Positions 25,041 to 59,135 of a DNA stretch of 64,000 nt are shown piece after piece. This DNA is from Verrucomicrobiota bacterium (GTDB lineage Bacteria > Verrucomicrobiota > Verrucomicrobiia > Limisphaerales > J093): NCBI GenBank assembly GCA_022710935.1, contig JAKLFY010000013.1:1-64000 (forward strand). The letters run 5' to 3'. A program made the position numbers and the translations under genes. The notes beneath the pieces were generated by a model. That model saw only the letters and a program-made list of their open reading frames with translations. It did not search any database and was not told the origin of the DNA. The first letter of the stretch is position 1. The number at the start of each line of letters is the position of its first letter.

Positions 25041-26099
25041 ATCCTGTCCGATTTCGAGGAGTTCGCCGTCTATGACGGACGCTGCAAGCCCCATAAGGAT
25101 GACCCCGCGGCGACCGCCCGCATCTTCTACTGCACCCTCCGCGACTACGCGGAGAAATGGGATTGGCTCGCCTCGATCTTCAGCCGCGACGCCGTGTTGA
25201 AGGGCGCGTTCGACAAGTTTGCCGAATCCACCAAAGCCAAGCGCGGCACCGCGGAATTCGACGCGGACTTTCTCGCCACCATCGAAGGGTGGCGGCTGGA
25301 CCTGGCCCGCAACCTCGCGCTGCGCAATCCCAAACTGACGCAGCGCGAACTGAACTTCGCCGTCCAGCGCATCATCGACCGGATCATCTTCCTGCGCATC
25401 TGCGAGGCGCGGGGCATCGAAGATCATGGGCGGCTGCAGGCGCTCGTGAACGGGGACCGCATTTACCCGCGCCTGGCAGAGCTGTTCCAGGCCGCCGATG
25501 TGCGGTATAACTCCGGCCTCTTCCATTTCCAGCCGGAGCCGGGCCGCCTCGAACCGCCGGACGAACTCACCCTGGCTGTCGAGATCGACGACAAGCTCCT
25601 GACCCGACAGATTGGACGCTACCCGGAATTCGCGATCGATACGGCCGGCTGGCATTGCCTGAACACGATGTTCATGGTCAACCTCCGGGCCGCGATGCCG
25701 GATCCGCTGTACGTGCTGGGCGTTCTCAATTCAAAGCTGATCCGGGCGCTGTGGCTGCATCGGTTCTATGATCAGCGGCGGACATTTCCGAAGATCAAAG
25801 GCACCTACTTGAAGCAGTTGCCGATCCCATGCCTCGACCATTCCGACCCCGCCGACACATCGCGTCACGAGCGGATGGTGCAGTTGGTCGAGCAGATGCT
25901 GGAATTGAACCGGAGGCTGCCGAGCGTCCGCACCCCGCAGGAGAAGACGGCGCTCGAACGGCAGATTGCCGCCACGGACACCCAGATTGATCGGCTCGTT
26001 TACGACTTGTACGGCCTGACCGAGGAAGAAATCAGAATCGTCGAAGGCGCACAACGGGTGGTTGGGGTGGGACAGTCTTTGACCCAGCCGCCCGCGTAG
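25041..26099 (+). pseudogene. Type IIG (Eco57I-like) R-M gene, 5'-truncated and internally deleted
   Basis: Coding similarity starts directly after the miaA stop (ILSDFEEFAVYDG) without a start codon; a GTG at 25194 would give 301 residues. The N-terminal half (RNLALRNPKLTQRELNFAV, DRIIFLRICEARGIE, RYNSGLFHFQPE) is the helical region that precedes the methyltransferase in Eco57I/BREX-like class I SAM-dependent enzymes. At about 25600-25612 it jumps to the C-terminal TaqI-like specificity region (GRYPEFAIDTAGWHCLNTMF, YVLGVLNSKLIRALWLHRFY, FPKIKGTYLKQLPIP). The whole catalytic core, including SAM-binding and NPPY motifs, is missing between them. The deletion preserves the reading frame, so a stub protein with a DNA-recognition domain could still be made. 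Restriction or modification activity is not expected. Confidence 0.8.
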
Positions 26100-26111
26100 G
26101 CTCAGCGCGTC

Positions 26112-26582
26112 ATGGGAATCACATTCGATCTGCAAGAGGCCGATGCCCGGCGGTTATTTCCGACACCGGCGCCCCGCCGCTCCACTGAGTCCAAGCCCGT
26201 GCGGCAAAGACGATGGGTCCCCCGCCGCTGCCGACGGCTCTGGATCGCACGCGACACCCGCATTGTGCCGGACGATTTGGCGGCGGACCTGTGCCACCAG
26301 GTTGGCCGGTGGCTTGGGGTGGAGTTGCCGCGCTCCTGGCCAGTGCGTCTGGCGGTAAAGGCGGATGTGGTCTACTACCACAACCGCCGCTTCCGCCAAG
26401 GTGTGCGTCGTGAAGGCCGGGCCGGGGTCCGGTTTCTGCGGACGTTCATGCAGCATTGGCTGGCGGCGCTACTCAGCCGCCGCTGGCCGGACTGGGGCGA
26501 GCGGCTGCCTCCCGGCTTTGAGCGAGGCGCGGAGTGGGCATCGCATTCGCCGGCCGAGGAAGGCACCGGGGCGTGTGGTTGA
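26112..26582 (+). CDS. Hypothetical protein
   Basis: This frame encodes 156 residues and starts with ATG 12 bases after the preceding restriction fragment. I do not recognise the family. The protein is rich in Arg and Trp; the middle (VVYYHNRRFRQG, FLRTFMQHWLAALLSRRWP) looks like a folded alpha/beta or helical unit rather than a chance frame. No signal peptide or membrane segment is visible. The position suggests it may once have belonged with the adjacent restriction gene, but this is only contextual. Confidence 0.5.
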   Translation: MGITFDLQEADARRLFPTPAPRRSTESKPVRQRRWVPRRCRRLWIARDTRIVPDDLAADLCHQVGRWLGVELPRSWPVRLAVKADVVYYHNRRFRQGVRREGRAGVRFLRTFMQHWLAALLSRRWPDWGERLPPGFERGAEWASHSPAEEGTGACG

Positions 26583-26724
26583 CACGGCGCACCCGAGCCG
26601 CCCCGAGACCTCGAACCGTGTCCGTGGGAGTGCATCTGGCGGTCAGCGGTGAGGCAGCGCGCCTGAAGCCTGGCGGTTGGCGGTCGCGAAGGGTGATGGC
26701 GCCGATGTCCTCTCCAGCGGGCAG

Positions 26725-26948
26725 TGCATCCGGAGGTTGTCGGTGGGAATCGAGTTTGCGCCGCGTGGGGGCACGCGGCCTACAACACCGATGTCTGTCC
26801 CTCTGGAGGCCGGGTCCCCCGACCCGGCGTCTGCACCCGTGGCTGTCTTCGCGCCGCGTGAGGACACGCGGCCTCCACCGGCAATCTCCATCCGTTGTAG
26901 GCCCGGTGCCCTCACCGGGCGACAGAACACCGACAACAACCAGATGCA
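26725..26948. repeat. Hairpin-rich dispersed element, copy A
   Basis: The element is 224 bp. Its ends are near-perfect inverted repeats: TGCATCCGGAGGTTGTCGG at 26725-26743 and CCGACAACAACCAGATGCA at 26930-26948. Four perfect 8-bp stems with 4-nt loops lie inside: 26760-26779 (GCCGCGTG/CACGCGGC), 26809-26828 (GCCGGGTC/GACCCGGC), 26853-26872 (GCCGCGTG/CACGCGGC) and 26901-26920 (GCCCGGTG/CACCGGGC). No coding capacity is evident. It sits directly upstream of the GH38-like gene. Copy B is at 35757-36067 and a degenerate relative at 58975-59135. Confidence 0.85.
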
Positions 26949-27014
26949 ACGGACTGCAGACCACGCGCGAGCCCGTGTTTGACGCGCCCCGCGGCTGCCT
27001 GTAGACAAGCCGTT

Positions 27015-29798
27015 GTGAATGTCTTCCCCAATGTTGTGGTGTCGGTGGGCCGCCTCGTGTGTTTGATGGCCGTGGCGGCAATGACCGCCCATTCCGCGCG
27101 CGTCGGCGCCGCGGTTCCACCGCAACTCGAAGCGGTGGTCGTGGTGTTTAAGACGCACTTCGACATCGGATACACCGACATGGCGAGCAATGTCGTGCAG
27201 CGCTATCGCACGACCATGATCGACCAGGCGCTCGAGGTCGTGGACCAGAACCGCGCCCTGCCGCCCGATCGCCAGTTCGTCTGGACCCTGCCCGGATGGC
27301 CGCTGACGCAGATTGTCGCGGATTGGCCCGGTCAGAGCGACGCCCGGCGCCAGCGGGTGAACGGGGCTTTCAAAGAGGGTCGGTTCGCCGTCCATGCCCT
27401 GCCCTTCACGACACACACCGAGTTGCTCGAACCGGAGGATCTGGTGCGCGGCCTCGGCTATTCGTCCCGGCTCTGCCGGGATGCCGGACTCGAACTGCCG
27501 CGCGATGCCAAGATGACCGATGTTCCCTGTCACTCGTGGATCCTGCCGACATTGCTGCGGCACGCAGGGGTCGATTTTCTTCACCTGGGCTGTAATGCCG
27601 CCAGCAGCTCGCCGCGCGTCCCGATCTTGTTCTGGTGGGAGGGGCCGGACCGGTCGCGGTTGCTCACGATGTACACGGCCGAGAGCTACGGCACCGGCCT
27701 CGTGCCGCCCGCGGACTGGCCGCACAAGACCTGGCTCGCCCTTATCCACACCGGCGACAACCACGGCCCGCCGCGTCCGGACGAGGTGAAGACGCTGCTT
27801 GAAGAGGCGGCGGTCAAGCTCCCCGGGGTGCGGGTGCGCATCGGCCGGCTCTCGGATTTCTCGGACGCGATCCTTGCGGAGAAGGCCGAGTTGCCGGTAG
27901 TGCGGGGCGATATGCCTGACACCTGGATTCACGGCCCCATGTGCGACCCGGCCGGCGCCCGGCTGGCCCGGACCATCCGCCCGGCCATCGCGATCCGCGA
28001 GACGCTCGACACGCACTTGCGGAGCTGGATTGGGGGAGATCGAAGATCGAAGATCGGAGATGGGAGACCGGAGATGGAAGATGGAAGATGGAAGATCGCA
28101 AATGGCCGATCGGAGATGGGAGATGGGGTGGGGATCGCAGCGGCTTATGAGAAGAGCCTGCTGTATGGCGAGCATACGTGGGGCGGCGCTTACTGGTGGA
28201 TCTACGGCAAGTACATCCAGCACTACGGAGACACATGGCGCCAGGAGCGCGACGCCGGCCGGTTCACGCGCATCGAATCCTCGTGGGCCGAACACGCGGG
28301 GTACATCGAGGAGGCGGCTCGGCTGACGCAGCCTGCGCTCGAAGACCAGATGCGCGCCCTGGCTCGATCGGTGGATCTCGAAGGCCTCCGCTTCGTCGTG
28401 TTCAATCCGCTTCCCTGGCCGCGCGACGGCGTGGTGGAACTTCCCGACGCCATGACTGCCGGTTTCAACACAATCCGGTCCGCCGACGACGGGCCTGCCC
28501 GGATGTTCACCGAGTGGGGCGATGGCCTGCGCCGGTTCGTGGCGCGCTCCGTGCCTCCGACGGGGTACCGAACCTATCGCTTGGCGCGCGCGCCCTTCGC
28601 CAAACCACCGCGGCCCAATCCGATCGAGCAGCCGATCCTCGCTAGTCCGTTCTTTCGGGCAACGCTCGACCCGGAGCGCGGCGTCATCCGCTCGCTCGTC
28701 GACCGGCAGTCCAGGCGCGAGCTGGTCGATCGGACTGCGCCGCACGGTTTCGGCCAGTATTTGTACCAGCGTTTCTCCTCGAACGAAGTCCAGGCCTACG
28801 TGGACGCTTACGTGAAGATCCATGCGGATTGGGCCACAAACGAATTAGGCAAACCGAATCTGCCGCCCGCCTCCGAGGTCCCCTACCGCGCCAGCTCGCC
28901 GCGGAACTGGGAGTTGAGCATCGAACGGACACGTGCGGCCCAGGCCGCCACCCTGGCGGCTCCCGCGACGCCCGATCTGCCGGCCGTCACGACGCGCCTC
29001 ATCCTGTACCAGGAGCAACCCTACGCCGACCTCGAGTTGACAGTGCACGACAAGGCGCCCGATCCATGGCCCGAAGCCGGTTGGCTGTGCTTGCCCTTCA
29101 ACATCGAGCAACCCCGGTTCCGCCTCGGACGCCTCGGGTCAATCATCGATCCGGTGCATGAGATCGTGCCCGGCGCGAACCGCAACCTGTACGGCCTCGA
29201 TACGGGCCTCACAATCGCCGAGCCCGGCGGCTGGGGCGTCGGCCTGTGCGCCCTCGACAATCCGTTGGTGAGCCTGGACAGCCCCGGCTGCTGGAAATAC
29301 TCCCTCGATTTCGTCCCGCGCCGTCCGGCGGTCTACGTGAACCTTTTCAACAACCAATGGACCACGAACTTCCGCCTCTGGAACAGCGGCACCTGGACGG
29401 CCCGAGTGCGGATCTGGTCGGTCAAGGAAGCCGGGAATGCGGCCGACGCGCTGATCGCTCCCTCCCTCGAAGCGCGGTTCCCGTTGCAGGTCGCATGGGC
29501 CGACGGCCCGGCGGGGTCGCTTCCCGCGCGCCAGCCCGGCCTCGGCATTGAACTCGAGGGTGTGCGCGTGACGGCGTTCGGTCCCAACCCGGACGGCCCC
29601 GGCACGGTTCTGCGCCTCTGGGAATACGCCGGGCGGGGCGGCCGTTGCGGTGTGCGCCTGCCACCCGGCATGGACCCTCGATTCGTCCAACCGGTCGACT
29701 TGCGCGGACGTCCGCTTGGCGCGCCCCTGCCCGTGCGCGCGCGCATGTTCCATCTCGATATAAAACCGTTCGCGCCTGCGAGCGTGGTCATCCGGTAG
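27015..29798 (+). CDS. GH38-like / DUF5054 family exported protein
   Basis: The frame runs from a TTG at 26979. GTG at 27015 (VNVFPNVVVSVGRLVCLMAV) gives a signal-peptide-like N-terminus and about 927 residues, but no Shine-Dalgarno sequence confirms it. The catalytic-domain start VVVFKTHFDIGYTDM matches the metal-binding HFD motif of alpha-mannosidase-like GH38 relatives, and FVWTLPGWPLTQIV, HALPFTTHTELLEPEDL and LLYGEHTWGGAYWWIYGK fit the DUF5054 branch. The C-terminal half is beta-rich like the GH38 C-terminal domains (RFRLGRLGSIIDPVHEIVPG). The likely role is periplasmic or secreted hydrolysis of alpha-linked glycans. A 13-unit heptamer array at 28037-28127 is translated within the protein, between DTHLRSW and AAAYEKSLLYGEHTWGG. 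Confidence 0.75.
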   Translation: MNVFPNVVVSVGRLVCLMAVAAMTAHSARVGAAVPPQLEAVVVVFKTHFDIGYTDMASNVVQRYRTTMIDQALEVVDQNRALPPDRQFVWTLPGWPLTQIVADWPGQSDARRQRVNGAFKEGRFAVHALPFTTHTELLEPEDLVRGLGYSSRLCRDAGLELPRDAKMTDVPCHSWILPTLLRHAGVDFLHLGCNAASSSPRVPILFWWEGPDRSRLLTMYTAESYGTGLVPPADWPHKTWLALIHTGDNHGPPRPDEVKTLLEEAAVKLPGVRVRIGRLSDFSDAILAEKAELPVVRGDMPDTWIHGPMCDPAGARLARTIRPAIAIRETLDTHLRSWIGGDRRSKIGDGRPEMEDGRWKIANGRSEMGDGVGIAAAYEKSLLYGEHTWGGAYWWIYGKYIQHYGDTWRQERDAGRFTRIESSWAEHAGYIEEAARLTQPALEDQMRALARSVDLEGLRFVVFNPLPWPRDGVVELPDAMTAGFNTIRSADDGPARMFTEWGDGLRRFVARSVPPTGYRTYRLARAPFAKPPRPNPIEQPILASPFFRATLDPERGVIRSLVDRQSRRELVDRTAPHGFGQYLYQRFSSNEVQAYVDAYVKIHADWATNELGKPNLPPASEVPYRASSPRNWELSIERTRAAQAATLAAPATPDLPAVTTRLILYQEQPYADLELTVHDKAPDPWPEAGWLCLPFNIEQPRFRLGRLGSIIDPVHEIVPGANRNLYGLDTGLTIAEPGGWGVGLCALDNPLVSLDSPGCWKYSLDFVPRRPAVYVNLFNNQWTTNFRLWNSGTWTARVRIWSVKEAGNAADALIAPSLEARFPLQVAWADGPAGSLPARQPGLGIELEGVRVTAFGPNPDGPGTVLRLWEYAGRGGRCGVRLPPGMDPRFVQPVDLRGRPLGAPLPVRARMFHLDIKPFAPASVVIR
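28037..28127 (+). repeat. Degenerate heptanucleotide array (13 units) inside the GH38-like gene
   Basis: Thirteen contiguous 7-bp units of the form AGATSGR (for example AGATCGA, AGATGGG, AGATGGA x3, AGATCGC, CGATCGG) fill exactly 91 bp. The encoded stretch is Asp/Gly/Arg/Glu-rich (DRRSKIGDGR, MEDGRWKIANGR). The total is not a multiple of three, so the surrounding frame depends on the unit count. Confidence 0.93.
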
Positions 29799-30010
29799 CG
29801 CGAGATACCAGAAAGGTGACTATTCCGCTTAACCGCGAATGCACGCGAATCCGAGTGTCGGACGGTGAGACAGACCGGGCCGGTGTTGCTTTGTTCGCGT
29901 CTATTCGCCTCTAGAGCGTCTGTGTCAGCCGCCTAGCCAATATCTGAGATTTGAGATTTCAAATTTGAGATGCGAAAGAGACGTTTTGCACGGATTTGCG
30001 CAAGTGCCGT
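29799..30010. other. Intergenic region with a heptamer array
   Basis: Between the convergent ends of the GH38-like and lectin/Ig genes lie a CGCGAATGCACGCGAAT-type repeat (about 29837-29853) and four 7-bp units TGAGATT, TGAGATT, TCAAATT, TGAGATG at 29945-29972. No gene or canonical terminator is visible. Confidence 0.6.
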
Positions 30011-33000
30011 CTATTGGCGGACCCGGAAGAACCGCATCGCGTCCGATGCCGGTGTCGTGTAGCCGGAAGCGGCGCCCGGAACGTCCGACCACCCTCCAGG
30101 CAGGGCCGTGGTGGTCTGCAGCGTGCCGCCGCCCGTCCACTCGATCACGATGTTGGCGCCTGACTGGCGGATGGTGAGGGTGGAGCCGACATCCGGCTGG
30201 GTGTTCAGGGCGATCTTGACATCGTCCATCCAGTGGTTGTCGTTGAGTCCTCCGGTGCGGGCGCCCCAGCCGAAGCGGCCAGTCTGGAACGGCACGAACC
30301 CGGGCAACGGCAGGCCGCGATAGACGGCCGTGTCGCCGTAGTACAGGTCGAGCGTTCCGTTGCGGTTGACGCGCACGCCGATCTGCTCGAAAGTGTCGCC
30401 TGTCTGCAGCACGCTGATGTCGAAAGGCCGGGTTGCGACCTGGCTGCTGCGGTAGACGATCGAGATCTCGGGCGCCACCTCGCTCGTGCCATTGTCGTAC
30501 GTGTCGAAGCTGACAATCAGGCCCGACCCGGCGCCATCTTCGCCAAACGTTCCGTCCACCACATCCGATCCCAGGACAAAGCTGAAACCGTCGGCGGGAA
30601 CGGCTGTGCCGCCGCCGACGCGCATCATCCAGGTTGCGGTGAAGTCCTTGATGGGGGCGGTGCCCGCGGGTGTGTCGAGGAGGAACGAGCCGCTCTGGTC
30701 GTTCACCGCCTCGGTCAGTTGCAGGAAGGCCGAGTCGCCGACCCCGCCCGGGCCGGTGATGAAGGCGCTTCCGAAGACGGCGCTCCCGACGGGAGTGGAA
30801 TAATCGTTGAAGTCGATGTTGACCGGCGGGTTGGCCCCCGCGTCGAACTTCGCCATCACCGATGCCGTTGCGGTGCGGCTGGTCACCGTGTTGTCGGGAC
30901 CCGTGACGACCACGGAATACCCCGTCCCGTCGTCGGCCAGGGCCAAGGCCGGTGTCGTGTAGGTCGAGCCGGTGGCTCCCGGGATGTCCACACCGTTGCG
31001 CCGCCACTGATACGTGACGCCCTGCGGGTCGCTCACCAGGACCTCGAACGAGGCGGGGTGGCCGACGAGGACAAGCACGTCCGCCGGTTCGCCTGTGATG
31101 CTGACGGTTTCCGGGATCGTGTAACCGAGGCAGACATTGTCGAACCAGTAGCTGGCGTTAAGATCGCCGGTGCGAGCGTAGAGGGCCAATTTGAGACCGC
31201 TCATCGGTGCGTATCCTGGCACCTGCAGGTTGTGGTAAACGATCGTGTCGCCCACGGCCAGATCGAGCAGGCCGTTTTCCTTGACGCGCAGGAGAACGGT
31301 TGCGTAGACGCCCGAATTCACCAGGGCCAAAGGCACCATTTTCACCGCCACAACCTGGCCCTTGTAGCGAACGTCGATCGAAGGGGCCTCGCCGCCTGCG
31401 TTGTCGTACGTGTCGAAGGCGATTGAAATGCCCGTGCCTCCGCCGTTCTCGGCGTCGCCGGCCGCGGTGATGGGAACGTCATTGGCGATGTTGATGCTGA
31501 ATCCGTCGGCCGGAGGCACAGTGCCGTTGCCGGCAAGGACGTCGGCGGCGAGCGTGAACTCGAGAACCTGGGCGCCTTGTTCGATCAGAGGCGAACGGAA
31601 TCCGCCCGCCTGGCTGTTCTCCGAGGTCGTCAGCTTGAGAACGCCGGAGTCGCTGACGCCGCCAACCGTGTCCACGAAAGCGACCGGGGTCGCTCCCTCG
31701 GGGTAGGTCCCGCCGATATCCGCGCCAGCGGGGAGGCCGTAGTCGAAGTTGTAACAGAATTGCGGGGCGCCGGGCGGCGCCAAATCGACCACGGTCAATG
31801 TGGCTTCCTGGCTGACCAGTCTCTCAGCGCCCACCGTGACCTCGACTTTGAACTTGGCGCCGTCGTCCGTGGCGACGGCGGGGGTGGTGCAGGTGTTCGA
31901 GGTGGCGCCGGCGATGGCTGTGCCGTTCTTGAACCACTGGTAGGCGGCGCCTGTGGGATTATTCACCTCGACGTCGAAGGTGGCCGTCCCGGTGACGAGC
32001 ACCATCTGATCCGCCGGTTGCTTGCTGATGCGGAGCGGGGCGGAGAGGTAAGTGTAGATGCGCAGGTTGTCCACCCAATGATTGGCATTGAGTCCGCCTG
32101 TGCGAGCATAGAAGCCGAAGCGCCCGCCGGCGATCGAGCCGAATCCGGGGACCGGCGCCCTGTACATCAGGACTTTGCCGTTCCAGGCCACGTCGAGAAG
32201 GCCATCGGACGTCACCCGCACGAGCACGTCGGCGAACCCGTCACCGGTGGTGATGTCGCTCAAGGCGGTCTTCACCTCGCCCACAACCGTCTCCCCCCAC
32301 TTGAGGGTGATGGCGGGGGCTTCGCCGACGCCATTGTTCGGGTTGCCGTCGGTGTTGTCATAAATGTCGAAACAGACGCGCAGGCCCGAGCCGACCCCTT
32401 CTTCGAGCATGCCCGTCGTGCTCTCGGGAAGGTCAGCGGCGAAGTTGAAGCTCATGCCATCGGCCGGGACCTCAGTACCGCCGCCAATGCGCACGTGGAA
32501 TCGAGCGGCGACGCCGTAGACGGGGGCGCCGGCGTGTTGGTCGGGGATGATGACCGCCCCGCCCTGGTAATTGATGTTCTCGGTGAGTTGGAGGACCCCC
32601 GAATCCGCCACACCCCCTGGACTCACGTAAGGTGCCCAAGGACTGACTCCGTCGGAGCCAGTCCCTGTCCCGACCACCAGCGTTTCGGCGGGCACCATGC
32701 CGTCGTCAAAGTCGTACGACACGACCGGCGCGGGCAACTGAACGACTGTGAGCGTGGCCTCGTCCGAAGTGACGACGCTCGCGCCGATTGTGGCGCGGGC
32801 CGAGAACTTGGCCCCGCTATCGGCCACGGCGGCCGTGCTCAGGGTGTAGGTGGTTCCGGTTGCGCCCGGTATAATGACGCCGTTGCGCAGCCACTGGACC
32901 GTCGCCAGATCGCCGTTGTTCAGGGTAATCGTGAACGTGGCTGAGCTACCCTCAACCACCAGCATGTCATACGGGTCCTGCAGGAAGCCCGGCTTGGGAT

Positions 33001-33721
33001 CGGTGTAGGTCACGATGCTCAGATCGTCGATCCAGTGGTGCGCATTCAGACCCCCGGTGCGCGCGCCGAATCCAATCCGCGCCCCGGACAAAGGCTGGTA
33101 ACCGGGGAAGAAGAACTTCGGAAAATGGACCTTGCCGTTGTAGGTCAGGCTGAAGCTGCCGTCGGCGTCGAAGAGGATCTCGACCGGCACAAACTCGCTG
33201 TTGATCAGATCGCTCAGCGGCAGCAGCGGCGTTGTGGCCACAGTCGCCCCTCCAATCACCAGGCGAATCTGCGGTGCCTCGCCGGTCCCGTTGTTCGGGT
33301 CGGCGTCGGTGTTGTCGTAGGTGTCGAAGCAGACCCGCAGGCCGCTTCCTATCCCGGTTTCACTCCAGGTTCCGTCGGGCAAATCCCCCACGCAGAAGCT
33401 CCAGCCGTCGGCTGGAACCGCGCTGCCTCCGCCCACCCGAGCCATGAAGTTGGCGCGAATCCCGTACACGTTTGCGTAGCCGTCCAGATCCTCGATCACG
33501 ATCGAGCCGGACTGGCTGTTGGCGTTCTTCGTGAGTTTCAGGCAGGCGGTGTCCCCGACTCCGCCTCCGCTTTCGACCATGGCGTTGCCGAAGATCTGGG
33601 ATCCGGCAGGCACCTGGCCGTCGTCGAAGTCTGCGTCGAATGTCCCTGCTCGCAACGGCGCCGCGAGAATCAGGGCCGAAACGGCAAGGGTGGACAGTAC
33701 TCCTATGGATGGGCTTTTCAT
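30011..33721 (-). CDS. Secreted four-module lectin-like/Ig repeat protein
   Basis: The ATG at 33721 starts a signal peptide (MKSPSIGVLSTLAVSALILA) and a protein of 1236 residues; the upstream open frame lacks coding character. Four ConA-like modules alternate with three Ig-like domains. Each module carries variants of ADGFSFVLGSDV, SFDTYDNGTSEVAPEI or VCFDIYDNTDGNPNNGVGEA, and FGARTGGLNAHHWIDDLSI. Ig domains show QWLRNGVIIPGATGTTY, QWFKNGTAIAGATSN and QWRRNGVDIPGATGSTY. The C-terminus has a short module VIEWTGGGTLQTTTALPGGW ending FFRVRQ. This module pairs with that of the 7984-11997 protein and may be an anchoring or sorting element. The probable role is an extracellular adhesin or glycan-binding protein. 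Confidence 0.85.
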   Translation of the reverse strand: MKSPSIGVLSTLAVSALILAAPLRAGTFDADFDDGQVPAGSQIFGNAMVESGGGVGDTACLKLTKNANSQSGSIVIEDLDGYANVYGIRANFMARVGGGSAVPADGWSFCVGDLPDGTWSETGIGSGLRVCFDTYDNTDADPNNGTGEAPQIRLVIGGATVATTPLLPLSDLINSEFVPVEILFDADGSFSLTYNGKVHFPKFFFPGYQPLSGARIGFGARTGGLNAHHWIDDLSIVTYTDPKPGFLQDPYDMLVVEGSSATFTITLNNGDLATVQWLRNGVIIPGATGTTYTLSTAAVADSGAKFSARATIGASVVTSDEATLTVVQLPAPVVSYDFDDGMVPAETLVVGTGTGSDGVSPWAPYVSPGGVADSGVLQLTENINYQGGAVIIPDQHAGAPVYGVAARFHVRIGGGTEVPADGMSFNFAADLPESTTGMLEEGVGSGLRVCFDIYDNTDGNPNNGVGEAPAITLKWGETVVGEVKTALSDITTGDGFADVLVRVTSDGLLDVAWNGKVLMYRAPVPGFGSIAGGRFGFYARTGGLNANHWVDNLRIYTYLSAPLRISKQPADQMVLVTGTATFDVEVNNPTGAAYQWFKNGTAIAGATSNTCTTPAVATDDGAKFKVEVTVGAERLVSQEATLTVVDLAPPGAPQFCYNFDYGLPAGADIGGTYPEGATPVAFVDTVGGVSDSGVLKLTTSENSQAGGFRSPLIEQGAQVLEFTLAADVLAGNGTVPPADGFSINIANDVPITAAGDAENGGGTGISIAFDTYDNAGGEAPSIDVRYKGQVVAVKMVPLALVNSGVYATVLLRVKENGLLDLAVGDTIVYHNLQVPGYAPMSGLKLALYARTGDLNASYWFDNVCLGYTIPETVSITGEPADVLVLVGHPASFEVLVSDPQGVTYQWRRNGVDIPGATGSTYTTPALALADDGTGYSVVVTGPDNTVTSRTATASVMAKFDAGANPPVNIDFNDYSTPVGSAVFGSAFITGPGGVGDSAFLQLTEAVNDQSGSFLLDTPAGTAPIKDFTATWMMRVGGGTAVPADGFSFVLGSDVVDGTFGEDGAGSGLIVSFDTYDNGTSEVAPEISIVYRSSQVATRPFDISVLQTGDTFEQIGVRVNRNGTLDLYYGDTAVYRGLPLPGFVPFQTGRFGWGARTGGLNDNHWMDDVKIALNTQPDVGSTLTIRQSGANIVIEWTGGGTLQTTTALPGGWSDVPGAASGYTTPASDAMRFFRVRQ

Positions 33722-33761
33722 AACGCGACTGTTGGTTTGAGGCTTGTGGGCTGAAGTCTCA

Positions 33762-33790
33762 CATATGCACCTCCCTCTCGACCTTGTCAA
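33762..33790 (-). promoter_or_regulatory. Candidate sigma-70 promoter for the lectin/Ig gene
   Basis: On the minus strand a perfect TTGACA (33785-33790) is followed 17 bases later by CATATG (33762-33767), about 40 bases before the ATG at 33721. The -10 match is weak, so this is a prediction only. Confidence 0.45.
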
Positions 33791-33844
33791 GGGCGGGCCG
33801 AAGCCGACTTGTGTCTCTGGCCAGACTGTGCTTTGGTCGGGCGC

Positions 33845-34642
33845 ATGAAAAGGCTGATGCGATGGATGCGCCTGCGGGCGCTGCTTGTGGGATGTGCCGT
33901 GCTCTGGATGGCCGGGTGCGTGACCGCGCCGGAAACCGGGCGCAGGCAACTGGTGCTGATCGGAAGCGACCAGGAACTGCAGTTGGGTCTGCAGGCGTTT
34001 TCGGACATGAAGAAGGAAATGCCCGTGAGCAAGAACGCGGCGACGAAGGCCCTCGTCGAGAAGGTCGGACGCCGGATCGCGGCGGTGGCGGATCTCCCGG
34101 GAGCGCAGTGGGAGTTCGTGGTGTTCGAGAGTCCGGAGGCCAATGCCTTCTGCCTGCCGGGCGGCAAGGTCGGAGTCTACACGGGCATTCTGCCGGTCAC
34201 GAAGGACGAGGCCGGCCTGGCGACGGTGATCGGGCACGAGGTGGCGCATGCGGCGGCCCATCATGGAGCCGAACGGATGAGCCGGGCGATCATCACACAG
34301 GGCCTGGGGGAGGCCGCGTCCGCGTACGTGGGCGGCAAAGACCCGCGCTACCAGGCGGCGTTCGGTTCGCTCTACGGCATCGGCGTGCAGGTGGGCGAGA
34401 CCCTGCCGCACAGCCGCAAGCAGGAATCCGAGGCGGACCAGATCGGTCTGATCTACATGGCCAAGGCGGGCTATGATCCGGAGGCGGCGGTCGCGTTTTG
34501 GCAGCGGTTTGCCGAGTACAACCGTGGGCAGGGCGGCCAGACGCTGGCGTTTCTGCGCACGCATCCGCTGGACGAGCGGCGCATTGCCGATCTCAAGCAG
34601 TGGATGCCCCGGGCGAAAGCGGCCTATCGTCCGGCTCGATGA
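33845..34642 (+). CDS. M48 family metalloprotease lipoprotein
   Basis: A Ste24/BepA/LoiP-like zinc protease of 265 residues. The ATG at 33845 precedes a lipoprotein signal ending in LWMAGC (lipidated Cys at about residue 24). The zinc motif is GHEVAHAAAHHG with His131, Glu132 and His135, and the third ligand is the Glu in KQESEADQIG. M48 lipoproteins of this type help in quality control of the outer membrane or periplasm. It is divergent from the lectin/Ig gene, and its 3' end overlaps RNase D by 50 bases in a convergent arrangement. Lipobox processing would use the LspA encoded in this window. Confidence 0.92.
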   Translation: MKRLMRWMRLRALLVGCAVLWMAGCVTAPETGRRQLVLIGSDQELQLGLQAFSDMKKEMPVSKNAATKALVEKVGRRIAAVADLPGAQWEFVVFESPEANAFCLPGGKVGVYTGILPVTKDEAGLATVIGHEVAHAAAHHGAERMSRAIITQGLGEAASAYVGGKDPRYQAAFGSLYGIGVQVGETLPHSRKQESEADQIGLIYMAKAGYDPEAAVAFWQRFAEYNRGQGGQTLAFLRTHPLDERRIADLKQWMPRAKAAYRPAR

Positions 34643-35690
34643 GCAGGCGCTTCTGCCACGGGAGAAGCGCGCGTTCCTGGCGCTCGCAACCGCTGGCCAG
34701 GGCCACCAGATCCGAGCGGCTGGCGATCAGGCTCGGATCGAGACCCAAGGCCGCGGCGTGACGGTTGCGACGGGCTTCGAGTCGTTCCAGGCGCAGTCTC
34801 TGGGCATGGGTCAACCGGTGTCCGCGCGGCCGCAACGGAGAGGGCCAGTCGGCCTTTCTCAAACGCGCCCCCCGGTCCAATGCCTCGAAGAGGGCCCTGC
34901 GGCGCCGGACGGAGAAACGCTTGGGAATCAGGGCGTCGACAATCTCACCCCGGGCCGCCTGTTCGGCCAGAGCGAGCAGGTGATCGTGGTTCAGGATGAA
35001 GAAAGGGGGCTGATTGGCGGCTCGAGCCTCCTGGTCCCGCCAGATCCAGACCTCGCGGAGGATTCCCAAGGCTCTCGGCTCCAGCCGGCTTGATCCCCGG
35101 ATGCGCCAGAGTCCGTCAGGGTCTTCCTCTGTCGCCCGCGTGCAATCGTGAACCAGTTGCGCGCACATTTGGCGGTGCCAATCGACCCGATCCAGCGCCC
35201 GCAGGCGATCGGACAGAAGCGTGGCCAACGGGTGCAGGTAACGCGTGTCGCTCCGGGCGTAGACGATCATCCGGTCCGTGAGAGGGCGCCGAGACCAGTT
35301 CGCCTTTTGCGGGCCTTTGTCGAGCTTGGTTCCCAGGAGCGACTCGACGAGCGCGCTGAGCCCGAACTCGCGCATGCCGACCACGCGCGCAGCCAGCATC
35401 GTGTCGAAAATCGCGTGGGGAATGAACTGGTAGCCCCGGTAGAGCATCCGCAAATCGTAATCGGCGCCGTGCAGCAGCAGGGTCCGCTCCTCGAGGGCCT
35501 GCCAGAGAGGGGCCAAGTCCATGCCGCTGAGGGGGTCCACAAGGGCGTCCTCCCCAGGCATGCTGAATTGCATGAGACAGACTTTCTCCGGATACGAGTG
35601 AAGACTGTCAGCCTCCGTGTCCATGGCCACCCAGTCCGCCGCGCGGAGTCGGGCGACAAAATCAGTCAGCATCGCGGGTGTGTCGATCAC
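34593..35690 (-). CDS. rnd: Ribonuclease D
   Basis: RNase D is a 3'-5' exoribonuclease that trims tRNA and other stable RNA precursors. GTG at 35690 (VIDTPAMLTDFVARLRAADW) gives 365 residues and restores the usual VIDTPEAL-like N-terminus; ATG at 35672 is the alternative, and the open frame upstream runs into repeat element B. The DEDDy catalytic set is visible: Asp24 and Glu26 in MDTEADSL, Asp79 in HGADYDL, and Tyr144/Asp148 in VYARSDTRYL. An HRDC domain follows (about 210-290, with LVALASG near the C-terminus in a second helical unit). The gene is convergent with and overlaps the M48 gene. Confidence 0.9.
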   Translation of the reverse strand: MIDTPAMLTDFVARLRAADWVAMDTEADSLHSYPEKVCLMQFSMPGEDALVDPLSGMDLAPLWQALEERTLLLHGADYDLRMLYRGYQFIPHAIFDTMLAARVVGMREFGLSALVESLLGTKLDKGPQKANWSRRPLTDRMIVYARSDTRYLHPLATLLSDRLRALDRVDWHRQMCAQLVHDCTRATEEDPDGLWRIRGSSRLEPRALGILREVWIWRDQEARAANQPPFFILNHDHLLALAEQAARGEIVDALIPKRFSVRRRRALFEALDRGARLRKADWPSPLRPRGHRLTHAQRLRLERLEARRNRHAAALGLDPSLIASRSDLVALASGCERQERALLPWQKRLLIEPDDRPLSPGASTA

Positions 35691-35756
35691 CGCCTCAGTA
35701 AGGAACGAAGAGCGTGAAAAGGGAAGCCGGATGTTCGATGTTCGGCCCCGGCTCAC

Positions 35757-36067
35757 TGCATCTGGAGGTTGTCGGGGGAAGTCGAGTTTGCGCCGTGTGG
35801 GGGCACGCGGCCTACAACATCGGTGTCTGTCCCTTGTAGGCCGGGTCCCCTGACCCGGCGCCCGCACCGATGTCTGTCCTTGCGCCGCGTGGGGGCACGC
35901 GGCCTACACCGGGAGTCTCGATGTGTTGTAGGCCCGGTGCCCTCACCGGGCGACAGAACACCGGCTGTGTTGTAGGCCCGGTGCCCTCACCGGGCGACAG
36001 AACACCGGCTGTGTTGTAGGCCCGGTGCCCTCACCGGGCCACAGAACACCGGCAACAACCAAATGCA
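35757..36067. repeat. Hairpin-rich dispersed element, copy B
   Basis: The element is 311 bp. It starts TGCATCTGGAGGTTGTCGG (35757-35775) and ends CCGGCAACAACCAAATGCA (36049-36067), matching the inverted ends of copy A. It contains the same GCCGCGTG/CACGCGGC and GCCGGGTC/GACCCGGC hairpins as copy A. The right part is amplified as three 44-bp units. It sits between the start of rnd and the truncated hsdM, at the edge of the decayed restriction locus. Confidence 0.85.
35926..36057. repeat. 44-bp tandem repeat, three units, within element B
   Basis: Units start at 35926, 35970 and 36014. Each includes the GCCCGGTG/CACCGGGC hairpin followed by a CGACAGAACACCGG-type tail. The third unit diverges slightly (CCACAG for CGACAG, and the end reads into the terminal inverted repeat). 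There are no spacers, so it is not a CRISPR. Confidence 0.95.
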
Positions 36068-36152
36068 CCGGGCGCATTGGACGAGCTTGCCCTCGACGAG
36101 ATCGGGGGGATTGAGGTTCAATCGCGGGCAGGACGAAGGCAATCGCTCGACT

Positions 36153-36830
36153 ATGGACCAAGCCACCCACAACAAGATCGTCTCCTTCATCTGGGGCATC
36201 GCCGACGATGTGCTGCGCGACCTGTTCAAGCGCGGCAAATACCCCGACGTCATCCTGCCCATGTGCGTCTTGCGCCGGATGGACGCCGTGCTCGAGCCGA
36301 CCAAGCAGGCCGTGCTGGAAACGAAGGAGATGCTCGACAAGGCGGGCATCACCGAGCAGCGCGCCGCGCTCGCCGCTGCTGCCGGCCAGTCCTTTTACAA
36401 CACCTCGAAATTCACCCTGCGCGACTTGAAGTCCCGGGGCAGCCAGCAGCAGCTCCTCGCCGATTTTGAAAATTACCTGGACGGATTCTCCCAAAATGTT
36501 CAGGACATCCTCGAGAACTTCAAATTCCGCAACCAGCTCCCAACCCTCTCGAAGTCCGATTCCCTCGGCACGCTCATCAACAAGTTCCTCGATCCAGAGA
36601 TCAATCTCAGCCCGGATCCCGTCCTCCATTCCGACGGCACGATCCGCCAGCCCGCGATGGACAATCACGCCATGGGCACCGTCTTCGAGGAACTGGTCCG
36701 CAAATTCAACGAGGACAACAACGAAGAGGCCGGCGAACACTGGACGCCCCGCGACGCCGTGCGCCTGATGGCGAATCTGATTTTCCTTCCCGTCGCTGAC
36801 CGCATCAAATCCGGCGCTTACCTGCCGTAG
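36153..36830 (+). pseudogene. hsdM: Truncated type I restriction methylase subunit HsdM
   Basis: The ATG at 36153 gives the standard family start MDQATHNKIVSFIWGIADDV, followed by RGKYPDVILPMCVLRRMDAV, and FNEDNNEEAGEHWTPRDAVR just before the end. It stops with TAG at 36828-36830 after ADRIKSGAYLP, exactly where intact HsdM proteins continue into the SAM-binding YDGACGTGG motif and the NPPF catalytic loop. Only the N-terminal 225 residues of what is normally a protein two to three times longer remain. The methylase is expected to be inactive. The fic gene follows after about 120 bases. Confidence 0.88.
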
Positions 36831-36953
36831 GATTCGGTCCCCAATACCGTTGCGTTAAACAGAACAGCCACGAAGGAATTTGTTTTAACTAAAAACCATT
36901 TTGCTTTACACAACGCTCGTTGCGGCAACCGCGTTTAACACAAGCGAAATACC

Positions 36954-38063
36954 ATGAAGCCATTTGAGCCAGAACCCCTTCCGCCCAGTGATCTCGAACT
37001 GCTTGCGCTCATGCCGTTGATCGGCAAGGCGAATCGGGCCATCGCCACCCTGGAAGGGCTCTTCTACGGCATCCCCAACCCCAATGTTCTGCTCTCGCCC
37101 ATCACGACGCAGGAAGCCGTGCTCTCCTCCAAGATCGAAGGTACTCAGGCTGATTTGGAGGACGTTCTGAAATTCGAAGCGGGCGAACCACCGTCCGAGC
37201 CATCCCGCCGGGACGACATCCACGAAATCATGAACTACCGGAAGGCCCTCCGTCTTTCCGAGAAGCTCCTCCAAGACCGCCCGTTCTGCCTGAACACTCT
37301 GCTCAAGCTTCATGACGTCCTCATGGACAGCGTCCGTGGCCACAACAAGGCGCGCGGACGCTTCCGCACGATTCAGAATTGGATCGGCAAGCCGGGCAGC
37401 CCGATTGAGGAAGCCGCCTTCGTTCCACCATCGCCGTTCCACCTGCAGGAGCACCTGAACCGTTGGGAAGCCTATTGGCATGCAGACGCACCAGACGCCC
37501 TGGTTCAACTCGCCCTCGTTCATGCGCAATTCGAGATTCTCCACCCGTTTATTGATGGCAACGGCCGCCTCGGGCGCATGATTATCCCGCTCTTCCTCTA
37601 CGAGAAGAAGATTCTGAGCCGGCCCTGCTTCTACCTATCGGCCTACTTTGAATCCAGCCGCGACAACTACATCGCCCGACTCAGAGATCTGGGCCAGCCC
37701 GGAAGCTGGACGCGCTGGTGTGCATTCTTTGTCGAGGGCGTGGCCGTGCAGGCCGAGGCGAACACCACCAAGGCCCGCGCCATTCAGGACCTGTACGAGC
37801 GCCTCAAGAAGAAAGTCATCGACCTGACGCACTCGCAGTTTGCCATACCGCTGCTCGACTTCATCTTCGAGCGGCCGATCTTCCGCAGCAGCGATGTCAC
37901 CAAGCTGGCGCACATGCCCAGCGCGCCCATGGTGGCCAATCTGCTTGGCAACCTCAGGCGGAACGGCGTGCTTCACACCGTGCGCGAAGGCGCCGGACGC
38001 CGCCCGCACGTGCTGGCGCTCGCCGAACTCATCAACCTCTGCGAGGGGAAGAAAGTGTTTTGA
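36954..38063 (+). CDS. Fic family protein (predicted AMP transferase)
   Basis: Fic enzymes usually transfer AMP from ATP to Ser, Thr or Tyr hydroxyls of target proteins. The 369-residue protein has an N-terminal Fic_N-type region, with the inhibitory helix motif SSKIEG (Ser58 to Gly63, S-x-x-x-E-G). The catalytic motif is complete: HPFIDGNGRLGR, with His197 as catalytic base and Asp201, Asn203 and Arg205 as other motif residues. A winged-helix-like region follows at the C-terminus (RPIFRSSDVTKLAHMPSA). The inhibitory motif in front of the core makes it a class II (N-terminally self-inhibited) Fic. It lies between truncated hsdM and full-length hsdS. The 36831-36953 spacer has inverted GTTAAAC/GTTTAAC copies at 36854-36860 and 36932-36938, a possible operator. 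Confidence 0.92.
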   Translation: MKPFEPEPLPPSDLELLALMPLIGKANRAIATLEGLFYGIPNPNVLLSPITTQEAVLSSKIEGTQADLEDVLKFEAGEPPSEPSRRDDIHEIMNYRKALRLSEKLLQDRPFCLNTLLKLHDVLMDSVRGHNKARGRFRTIQNWIGKPGSPIEEAAFVPPSPFHLQEHLNRWEAYWHADAPDALVQLALVHAQFEILHPFIDGNGRLGRMIIPLFLYEKKILSRPCFYLSAYFESSRDNYIARLRDLGQPGSWTRWCAFFVEGVAVQAEANTTKARAIQDLYERLKKKVIDLTHSQFAIPLLDFIFERPIFRSSDVTKLAHMPSAPMVANLLGNLRRNGVLHTVREGAGRRPHVLALAELINLCEGKKVF

Positions 38064-38190
38064 GGGCATTCATTTACGCGCAACCCGCCATGCACCCCCA
38101 CGAAGCACCGCAACTCGCTGCAAACAAAGGGGTTCTTTATTTAAGCGTTTGCCTTCGGTGTCAGCGGGAAGCCGGAAACGGAGGCGCGTC

Positions 38191-39546
38191 ATGATCGCCA
38201 ACCCTTCGACTCCGCTCATGGCAGGCCTCCAGCCTTACCCGGAATACAAGGAGTCGGGCCTGCCGTGGTCTGCACAGCTTCCCTCGCACTGGAAACAGGA
38301 GCGTGCGAAATGGCTGTTCACTAAGATGGATCGCCCAGTTGGGGAGAATGATGAGGTCGTAACGTGCTTCCGCGACGGCAAGGTGACATTGCGGAAGAAT
38401 CGCCGCTCACGCGGATTCACCGAAGCCATTTACGAGTTCGGCTACCAAGGCATCCGCAAGGGCGACCTCGTGATTCATGCGATGGACGCATTCGCTGGTG
38501 CGGTGGGCGTGTCCGACAGCAACGGCAAGGGCACTCCGGTTTACGCAGTCTGCCAACCGAAGACGGGCGTTAACGCCCACTACTACGCCTTCATCATACG
38601 TGAGATGGCACGGTCGCAGTGGATTCTCGCTCTTTCTCGTGGCATCCGTGAACGTTCGACCGATTTTCGCTACGACACTTTCGGCGGACAGCGTGTGCCA
38701 TTGCCCCCTCCCTCGGAGCAGGCGGCGATGGTGCGGTTTCTGGACTGGGCGAACGGGCGGCTGGAGCGGGCGATCCGGGCGAAGCGAAAGGTGATCGCGC
38801 TGCTCCACGAGCAGAAGCAGGCCATCATCCACCGGGCCGTCACCCGAGGTTTGAACGCGGAGGCCGCGTTCAAACCTTCCGGCATCCCCTGGCTCGGCAA
38901 CATCCCCGAGCATTGGGAAGTGTGGCCGTTACGCCGGTGCATTTCCATCCGGTCTGGCGATTTCATCGATGGATCGAAGCTCAAGAATGAGAGAAGCGAC
39001 TCAAGCCCGATCCCCGTGATAGGTGGGAATGGCATCATGGGATTTGCCGATCGGTCAAACGTTTCCGGGCTGACCATCGTGATCGGGCGAGTGGGTGCTC
39101 TTTGCGGAAATGTTCATCTGGTTAAAGAGGCTGCGTGGATTACTGACAATGCTTTGAGGATTACCCGGATGGTAGGCTTTGACGCTGGTTACCTGGCCGA
39201 GCAGCTCCGCGTCATGAATCTGAACCTGCTCGCCAATGCCAACGCGCAACCGCTGGTCACCGGGGGTGTAATCAAAACGCAACGCGTCGTAAAGCCCCCA
39301 CAAGATGAGCAGCAAAGAATCACCGATGCATTGCAGACGCTATACGTTCCAGTGACAAGCGCCCTCTCCCGTCTTGATCGCGAAATCGGATTGCTGCGGG
39401 AATACCGGACGCGGCTGGTGGCGGACGTGGTGACGGGCAAGCTGGACGTGCGTCCCGCCGCCCGCGACCTCCCCGCCGAACCCCGCGCCCCCGAACTCGC
39501 GCCGGAGGAATCGTCCGAACCCGAAACCGAGGAAACCGAAGCATGA
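38191..39546 (+). CDS. hsdS: Type I restriction specificity subunit HsdS
   Basis: HsdS gives the DNA sequence specificity of type I restriction-modification complexes. The ATG at 38191 has GGAGG at 38180-38184 and gives 451 residues, a full-length protein. Two target-recognition domains are each opened by a GLPW/GIPWLG-type motif (KESGLPWSAQLPSHWK and SGIPWLGNIPEHWEVW) and closed by a conserved helix: LLHEQKQAIIHRAVTRGL in the middle and LLREYRTRLVADVVTGKL at the end. The C-terminal tail is Pro/Glu-rich (EPETEETEA). Its partners hsdM and hsdR are both truncated here, so it has no local functional complex. It ends in ATGA overlap with the next small frame. Confidence 0.92.
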   Translation: MIANPSTPLMAGLQPYPEYKESGLPWSAQLPSHWKQERAKWLFTKMDRPVGENDEVVTCFRDGKVTLRKNRRSRGFTEAIYEFGYQGIRKGDLVIHAMDAFAGAVGVSDSNGKGTPVYAVCQPKTGVNAHYYAFIIREMARSQWILALSRGIRERSTDFRYDTFGGQRVPLPPPSEQAAMVRFLDWANGRLERAIRAKRKVIALLHEQKQAIIHRAVTRGLNAEAAFKPSGIPWLGNIPEHWEVWPLRRCISIRSGDFIDGSKLKNERSDSSPIPVIGGNGIMGFADRSNVSGLTIVIGRVGALCGNVHLVKEAAWITDNALRITRMVGFDAGYLAEQLRVMNLNLLANANAQPLVTGGVIKTQRVVKPPQDEQQRITDALQTLYVPVTSALSRLDREIGLLREYRTRLVADVVTGKLDVRPAARDLPAEPRAPELAPEESSEPETEETEA

Positions 39547-58974: not shown

Positions 58975-59135
58975 GGAGTGCGGCACCCGGCCTGCAAAGA
59001 TGCGGACCCATGCTGTAGGCCGCATGCCCCCGCGCGGCGCAAGGGTGGACATCGGTGCAGACGCCGGGTCGGGCGACCCGGCCTGCAAAGATGCGGACGG
59101 AGGTTGGAGGCCGCGTCCTGCGCGCTGCATTTGGT
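58975..59135. repeat. Hairpin-rich dispersed element, degenerate copy C
   Basis: A related hairpin GCCGGGTC/GACCCGGC occurs at 59063-59082 (loop GGGC). A 21-bp direct repeat beginning CCCGGCCTGCAAAGATGCGG occurs at 58986-59006 and 59077-59097, and a GCATTTGGTTG end motif at about 59127-59137 resembles the terminal repeat of copies A and B. The left end is not clearly preserved. It lies between the lipoprotein and the Gfo/Idh gene. Confidence 0.6.

Follow-up and report, generated by a model that had tools for sequence, protein, structure and literature searches.

The dispersed element present twice in the window (the whole 64,000-nt stretch of DNA analysed here) appears to be a MITE of ISKra4-like transposons, that is, of the prokaryotic Mutator type p-MULT 4, with an interior made up of GTAG REP hairpins; judging from its sequence and that of its relatives, we give this reading a probability of roughly 0.87. 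Its mover is most likely a cut-and-paste transposase of the Mutator/ISKra4-like kind rather than a RAYT, the enzyme on which the whole element had been thought to depend in the first-pass annotation of this DNA.

Structure of the copies in the window

Both copies lie where that annotation had seen them (26725-26948 and 35757-36067, with common inverted ends), and each consists of imperfect inverted repeats around hairpins with an 8-bp stem and a 4-nt loop. The ends give three matches in the 64,000-nt window at up to three mismatches, against 0.02 expected from shuffles, and the hairpins, which are equally real, give 18 matches against 0.9 expected. The left end reads TGCATC(C/T)GGAGGTTGTCGG and the right end TGCAT(C/T)TGGTTGTTG(T/C)CGG; since the two sequences differ, the inverted ends are imperfect. 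The 19-bp ends originally described are genuine and common to both copies, but the true ends start 3 bp farther outward and measure 24 bp.

Copy 1 (26722..26951, + strand), a MITE of the 223/224-bp class with 3 bp added per side, has four REP hairpins between its left terminal repeat CAGTGCATCCGGAGGTTGTCGGTG (26722..26745, +) and its right terminal repeat, which reads CGTTGCATCTGGTTGTTGTCGGTG (26928..26951, -). These hairpins are GTAGGCCGCGTG/CACGCGGC at 26760..26783 (-), GGAGGCCGGGTC/GACCCGGC at 26805..26828 (+), GGAGGCCGCGTG/CACGCGGC at 26853..26876 (-) and GTAGGCCCGGTG/CACCGGGC at 26897..26920 (+), the tag being decayed in the second and third. Copy 2 (35754..36070, +), of the 311-bp class and likewise with 3 bp per side, has six REP hairpins, three of which form a 44-bp tandem. 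Its left terminal repeat CACTGCATCTGGAGGTTGTCGGGG (35754..35777, +) is followed by a hairpin with one stem mismatch (35792..35815, -), by GTAGGCCGGGTC/GACCCGGC (35836..35859, +) and GTAGGCCGCGTG/CACGCGGC (35884..35907, -), and then by the tandem, of which the first unit is GTAGGCCCGGTG/CACCGGGC (35928..35951, +) and the second and third lie at 35972..35995 (+) and 36016..36039 (+); the right terminal repeat, reading CGGTGCATTTGGTTGTTGCCGGTG, occupies 36047..36070 (-). A third stretch, 58975-59135, had been taken for a degenerate copy. It holds a decayed REP pair (59015..59086, strand not assigned) with no terminal repeats, and is a REP cluster rather than a copy of the MITE.

The copies do sit at the edges of decayed restriction genes, as had been observed: copy 1 is preceded by the remnant of a TaqI-like C-terminal domain, and copy 2 is followed by a short HsdM frame. 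Open frames that run across the two copies are those of the neighbours or are unsupported. Neither copy in the window has a clear target duplication, the flanks matching at 4/9 positions for copy 1 and 3/9 for copy 2.

Copy number, size classes and boundaries

The host genome, a draft of 7.52 Mb in 259 contigs, matches the 19-bp end 97 times on one strand and 100 times on the other (at most three mismatches), against two and one for the reversed pattern. This amounts to about 100 elements, and the case in which the window would hold the only copies in the genome is thus false. Among the ends listed, 52 pairs form elements, 26 of them exactly 131 bp long and the others near 133, 223 and 311 bp; the 131-bp form has two hairpins, the 223-bp form four and the 311-bp form six. 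The extracted elements, at 117-318 bp each, are too short to encode a transposase. The original description of a dispersed, non-coding, non-autonomous element holds. The size variants (131, about 223 and about 311 bp, and long arrays, one of which is a copy on contig C182 that has expanded in tandem) are set apart by a 92-bp REPIN-like unit, in which the tags of the REPs point outward, and by tandem units of 44 bp or of other kinds, and may have arisen by REPIN insertion, slippage or recombination.

When 45 elements were aligned with their flanks, the conserved part was found to reach 3 bp outward, mostly as CAG on the left and CCG on the right. The real terminal repeats are C[A/G]GTGCATCTGG..GTTGTCGGTG, 24 bp in length, with C as the first base in 42 of the 45 left ends and G as the last in 35 of the 45 right ends. 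The 9-bp flanks match at six or more positions in 30 of these 45 elements, against 0.93 expected, and at eight or nine positions in 15, against 0 expected, the expected values having been computed from mismatched flank pairs. Duplications of 9 bp just outside the 24-bp ends point to a DDE-type transposase that makes a 9-bp staggered cut, and together with the terminal repeats they argue that these are DDE-type MITEs and not RAYT/REPIN insertions. Judged from the same duplications, which many genome copies have despite the lack of a clear one at the two window copies, the ends coincide with insertion boundaries. An empty site was sought in a genome of the same genus (G001), which is 85-92% identical to the host where long stretches align; none of the three stretches tried gave both flanks, and the G001 matches end about 20 bp before copy 2 and start about 20 bp after copy 1. 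G001 is taken to be Verrucomicrobia bacterium ADurb.Bin006, with which it corresponds in contig numbers and in the positions of matches.

A candidate partner insertion sequence

The sequence GGTGCATCNNNNNGTTGTCGGTG is found in 15 of the 320 genomes of the same order, against 0 for the control. In one of these (G012) the end adjoins a transposase gene, and a search with the protein that it encodes yielded a set of insertion sequences, two close matches in the host genome among them. The candidate partner is 2.2-2.3 kb long and has the same type of ends in the host genome and in relatives. The host copy on contig C55 (2.27 kb) has both ends and two overlapping open frames, for a DruA-domain protein (PF14236, 110 bits) and, downstream of it, an ISKra4-type transposase. 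The latter scores 181.9 bits (E=2.2e-53) against the NCBIfam ISKra4 model NF033572, which is the best family by far, though the score is below the equivalog cut-off of 205. A perfect 9/9 target duplication surrounds the G012 copy, and further copies with paired ends occur in G074, G072, G112 and G026; the C55 copy has no such duplication (3/9). The ends of the host insertion sequence are identical to each MITE end at 20 of 24 positions and differ at 4, and a cognate insertion sequence with the exact ends of the MITE was not found in the draft host genome. G001 contains MITEs and gave no transposase match. The possibility that the MITE is a simple internal deletion of the insertion sequence was considered and rejected, as the first 80 bases of the insertion-sequence ends have no evident similarity to it past the terminal repeat, although ends of this type do bound a 972-bp element in G013, which has a perfect 9-bp duplication.

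Prokaryotic Mutator-type transposons have ends of 18-39 bp, a terminal cytosine and target duplications of 8 or 9 bp (PMC3942029), a published set into which the 24-bp ends, terminal C and 9-bp duplication of the MITE fit. The present case resembles the ISKra4/p-MULT 4 insertion sequences in these respects and in the family to which the partner transposase is closest; it differs from them in the score of that transposase, in the DruA-domain gene that lies upstream of the transposase frame and overlaps it, and in that the elements themselves are non-coding derivatives. From the ends, the duplications and the partner we infer that the ISKra4-like transposase of such an insertion sequence would bind the MITE ends in trans and insert the MITE by way of a 9-bp staggered cut, the REPs being multiplied along with the MITE as passengers.

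The REP hairpins

The hairpins of the interior bear the tag, GTAG, that marks the GTAG REP superfamily, a group already recorded in Verrucomicrobia (PMC3733652). Their exact pattern occurs 409 times in the host genome (control 0) and in 78 of the 320 genomes of the order, many of which do not have the end pattern of the MITE, so that the REP family is independent of this MITE. In a 0.81-Mb sample of the host genome, chosen by contig and with the CRISPR array of contig C1 (83 apparent hairpins) excluded, 37 of the 74 hairpins lie between both MITE ends, nine beside one end and 28 elsewhere.

The two arms of the stem covary, with G-C and C-G exchanged at positions 4, 5 and 8 while pairing stays perfect in 193 of the 229 distinct hairpin contexts. 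Among 17 copies of the 131-bp form, divergence from the consensus is 2.1% in the REPs and 8.8% in the remaining interior (p=0.0009); the terminal repeats diverge by 2.7%, a value biased low by the picking of copies by their ends. Inside the REPs, the GTAG tags vary more than the stems. The combination of low stem divergence and tag decay is better explained by selection on hairpin structure than by a RAYT still making use of the hairpins, and the stems may, somewhat less firmly than the other steps proposed here, have been kept by such selection; gene conversion among REPs could give a similarly low divergence.

REPs in other MITEs with these ends

Eight other genomes, from seven families, yielded MITEs with these ends but differing interiors; 8 or 9 of the 9 bases are duplicated in 32 of these 47 MITEs. 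Over 13 MITE types, the host's included, GTAG is the commonest of the 256 tetranucleotides in front of hairpins, with 12 occurrences where the mean is 0.8 and where shuffled interiors give 0.14 (maximum 2) for GTAG. GTAG hairpins are present in eight of the 13 types, in six genomes, and in the seven types besides the host's they mostly have another hairpin sequence. The MITEs of G016 and G086 have the same ends, target duplications and no GTAG hairpin. Where REP pairs occur outside these MITEs, they are often framed by inverted arms of other kinds, with 9 of 24 exceeding the 99th percentile of shuffles; the arms that frame them include GCGCATCTTGATACTGCCA, CTCAGAGCCTGTTTGAAAAC, TAGCAGCCCGTTAAA and CTATACACAGCGTCAGAA.

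Alternative explanations

The likeness to REP and REPIN elements that was first noticed holds for the hairpins and does not extend to the element as a whole. Were the entire element a REPIN-like unit, moved in trans by a RAYT (Y1) acting on the hairpins with the inverted ends as accessories, one would understand the GTAG tag, which RAYTs need (PMC8266576), the inverted pairing of the hairpins, the outward tags of the 92-bp inner unit and the 12 Y1_Tnp matches in the genome. However, the unit is bounded by the 24-bp ends, with the 9-bp duplications outside them, and not by REPs; it has its ends in common with a DDE insertion sequence; in G016 and G086, MITEs with such ends move although they have no GTAG hairpin, to judge from their duplications; and of the 12 Y1_Tnp loci found in the draft host genome, some of them cut by contig ends, not one has these hairpins or ends at its flanks. 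The target duplications and the absence of a cognate RAYT led us to reject a RAYT as the mover of the whole element, and we regard this explanation as very improbable. Hardly credible at all is an immobile structured RNA, regulatory or attenuator, or some other host function, multiplied by recombination: the single strand does have a strong predicted fold (z = -5.5) and the stems are constrained, but the target duplications in the host and other genomes, the insertion sequence with matching ends and the scattered positions all speak for mobility. A known RNA family was rejected, as there is no Rfam match within the window.

With an ISKra4-like transposase retained as the probable mover of the MITE, the REPs may still be passive, having spread by a RAYT route of their own, landed in dispensable MITEs and been copied without benefit to them, and to this we give about even odds. 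Many genomes that lack the end pattern of the MITE do contain REPs of this kind, as does DNA outside MITEs in the host genome, and one Y1 gene (at L062) has its own, different GTAG hairpins. Weighing against passivity are the fourfold lower divergence of the MITE hairpins relative to the surrounding interior, which gene conversion could mimic, the recurrence of GTAG hairpins in eight of the 13 MITE types, and the REP pairs found within several other inverted-repeat frames. It is conceivable, though with the odds against it, that in this Verrucomicrobiota order the GTAG REP hairpins have a function within DDE-type MITEs, and that different MITE frames have repeatedly acquired REPs because the hairpins help the element, possibly by pairing of its ends or by limiting transcription through it. 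If so, REPs would multiply as riders on transposons of the cut-and-paste type and would not depend on a RAYT.

Comparison with known systems

That a GTAG REP can lie inside a MITE is already known from QMITE2 of Coxiella burnetii, a MITE of 150-190 bp with direct repeats of 7-11 nt that contains a GTAG REP and is described as an IS1111 target in its gammaproteobacterial host (PMC5896051). The resemblance is in architecture only; here a candidate partner transposase has been identified, and the interior of the MITE is taken up by two or more REPs. Also known, from Pseudomonas putida and P. fluorescens, are degenerate GTAG units that adjoin unrelated inverted repeats or palindromes in hundreds of copies (PMC3733652), much as the present REPs adjoin other palindromes, but the Pseudomonas units flank tyrosine transposase genes, whereas the present elements share their ends with a DDE insertion sequence. 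GTAG repeats have been reported from Opitutus terrae and other PVC bacteria (PMC3733652, PMC3116915); with the GTAG REPs and REPINs that are accompanied by RAYTs the present hairpins have in common the tag, short perfect stems, inverted pairs and high copy number, and they differ in that most of the sampled copies lie inside MITEs with ends and target duplications of their own and in that no RAYT with this hairpin was found here.

As far as our searches show, two things are new: a DDE partner that also has a DruA gene, and the repeated occurrence of the pairing across MITE types and families; in the literature on ISKra4 MITEs, or on DUF4338 with transposases, nothing was found on this combination. 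How REP sequences attain copy numbers in the hundreds where a genome has no evident RAYT is still a question, and carriage inside MITEs that are mobilised by transposases of another class would offer a concrete alternative route, for which the present case supplies target duplications and a candidate gene for the partner. This route would also connect an ISKra4-like, DruA-coding insertion sequence with a MITE family that ranges across an order, within which the same ends, occurring with different GTAG hairpins or with none, provide a natural comparison for the role of the hairpins in transposition. An exact-pattern scan of named genomes gave matches in contigs of Verrucomicrobia bacterium ADurb.Bin006 and otherwise single matches in other phyla.

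REP pairs and related repeats

The REP pair of the MITE is not confined to that element, since in the same genome it is also enclosed by a different set of inverted arms, CTATACACAGCGTCAGAA / CTATACAGAGCGACATAA, found at loci L258, L260, L265 and L263 (the last on contig C35 outside the window, at about 75690) and on contig C205 at about 129490. These elements constitute a second MITE-like family of the genome. Elsewhere in the order, too, REP pairs are enclosed by further, unrelated inverted arms, as at L374 (genome G072), L376 (G076), L389 (G091) and L391 (G094). One MITE of the window's own genome (G000), L268 on contig C182 (approximately 25950-26860), contains a tandem array of about 20 hairpins in units of roughly 80 bp, grown from the element's own hairpin pair.

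The REP pattern is imitated on contig C1 of G000 by the palindromic repeat of a CRISPR array (L342-L343, approximately 182517-188402), in which the unit GTCGCCCCGGTGTTCGCACCGGGGCGCGGATTGAAAC recurs in at least 82 copies at a spacing of 70-73 bp. On contig C64 of the same genome (L062, approximately 788-1126), a Y1 transposase gene is accompanied by another long GTAG hairpin, GTAGCCGGTGGTCGG..., which differs from that of the MITE and is present twice; the gene is probably a RAYT having a REP of its own.

Genes beside the elements

In G012, another genome of the order, the DruA-coding insertion sequence (L186, 11266-13488, contig C212) has inserted at the start of a second DruA-like frame, which itself stands ahead of an IS66-type transposase. 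The likeness of this second frame to DruA was judged by eye only. DruA-like proteins may thus be associated with insertion sequences of more than one type.

Directly before copy 1, the MITE at 26722-26951, is a 301-aa frame (25194-26099) with a TaqI-like C-terminal specificity domain. It is the remnant of another restriction enzyme than that of the Type I restriction locus at 36063-39546 of the window. In that locus the HsdM frame, of 255 aa, covers the N-terminal part alone; a Fic-domain gene lies at 36954-38063, and the frame of a specificity subunit at 37840-39546.
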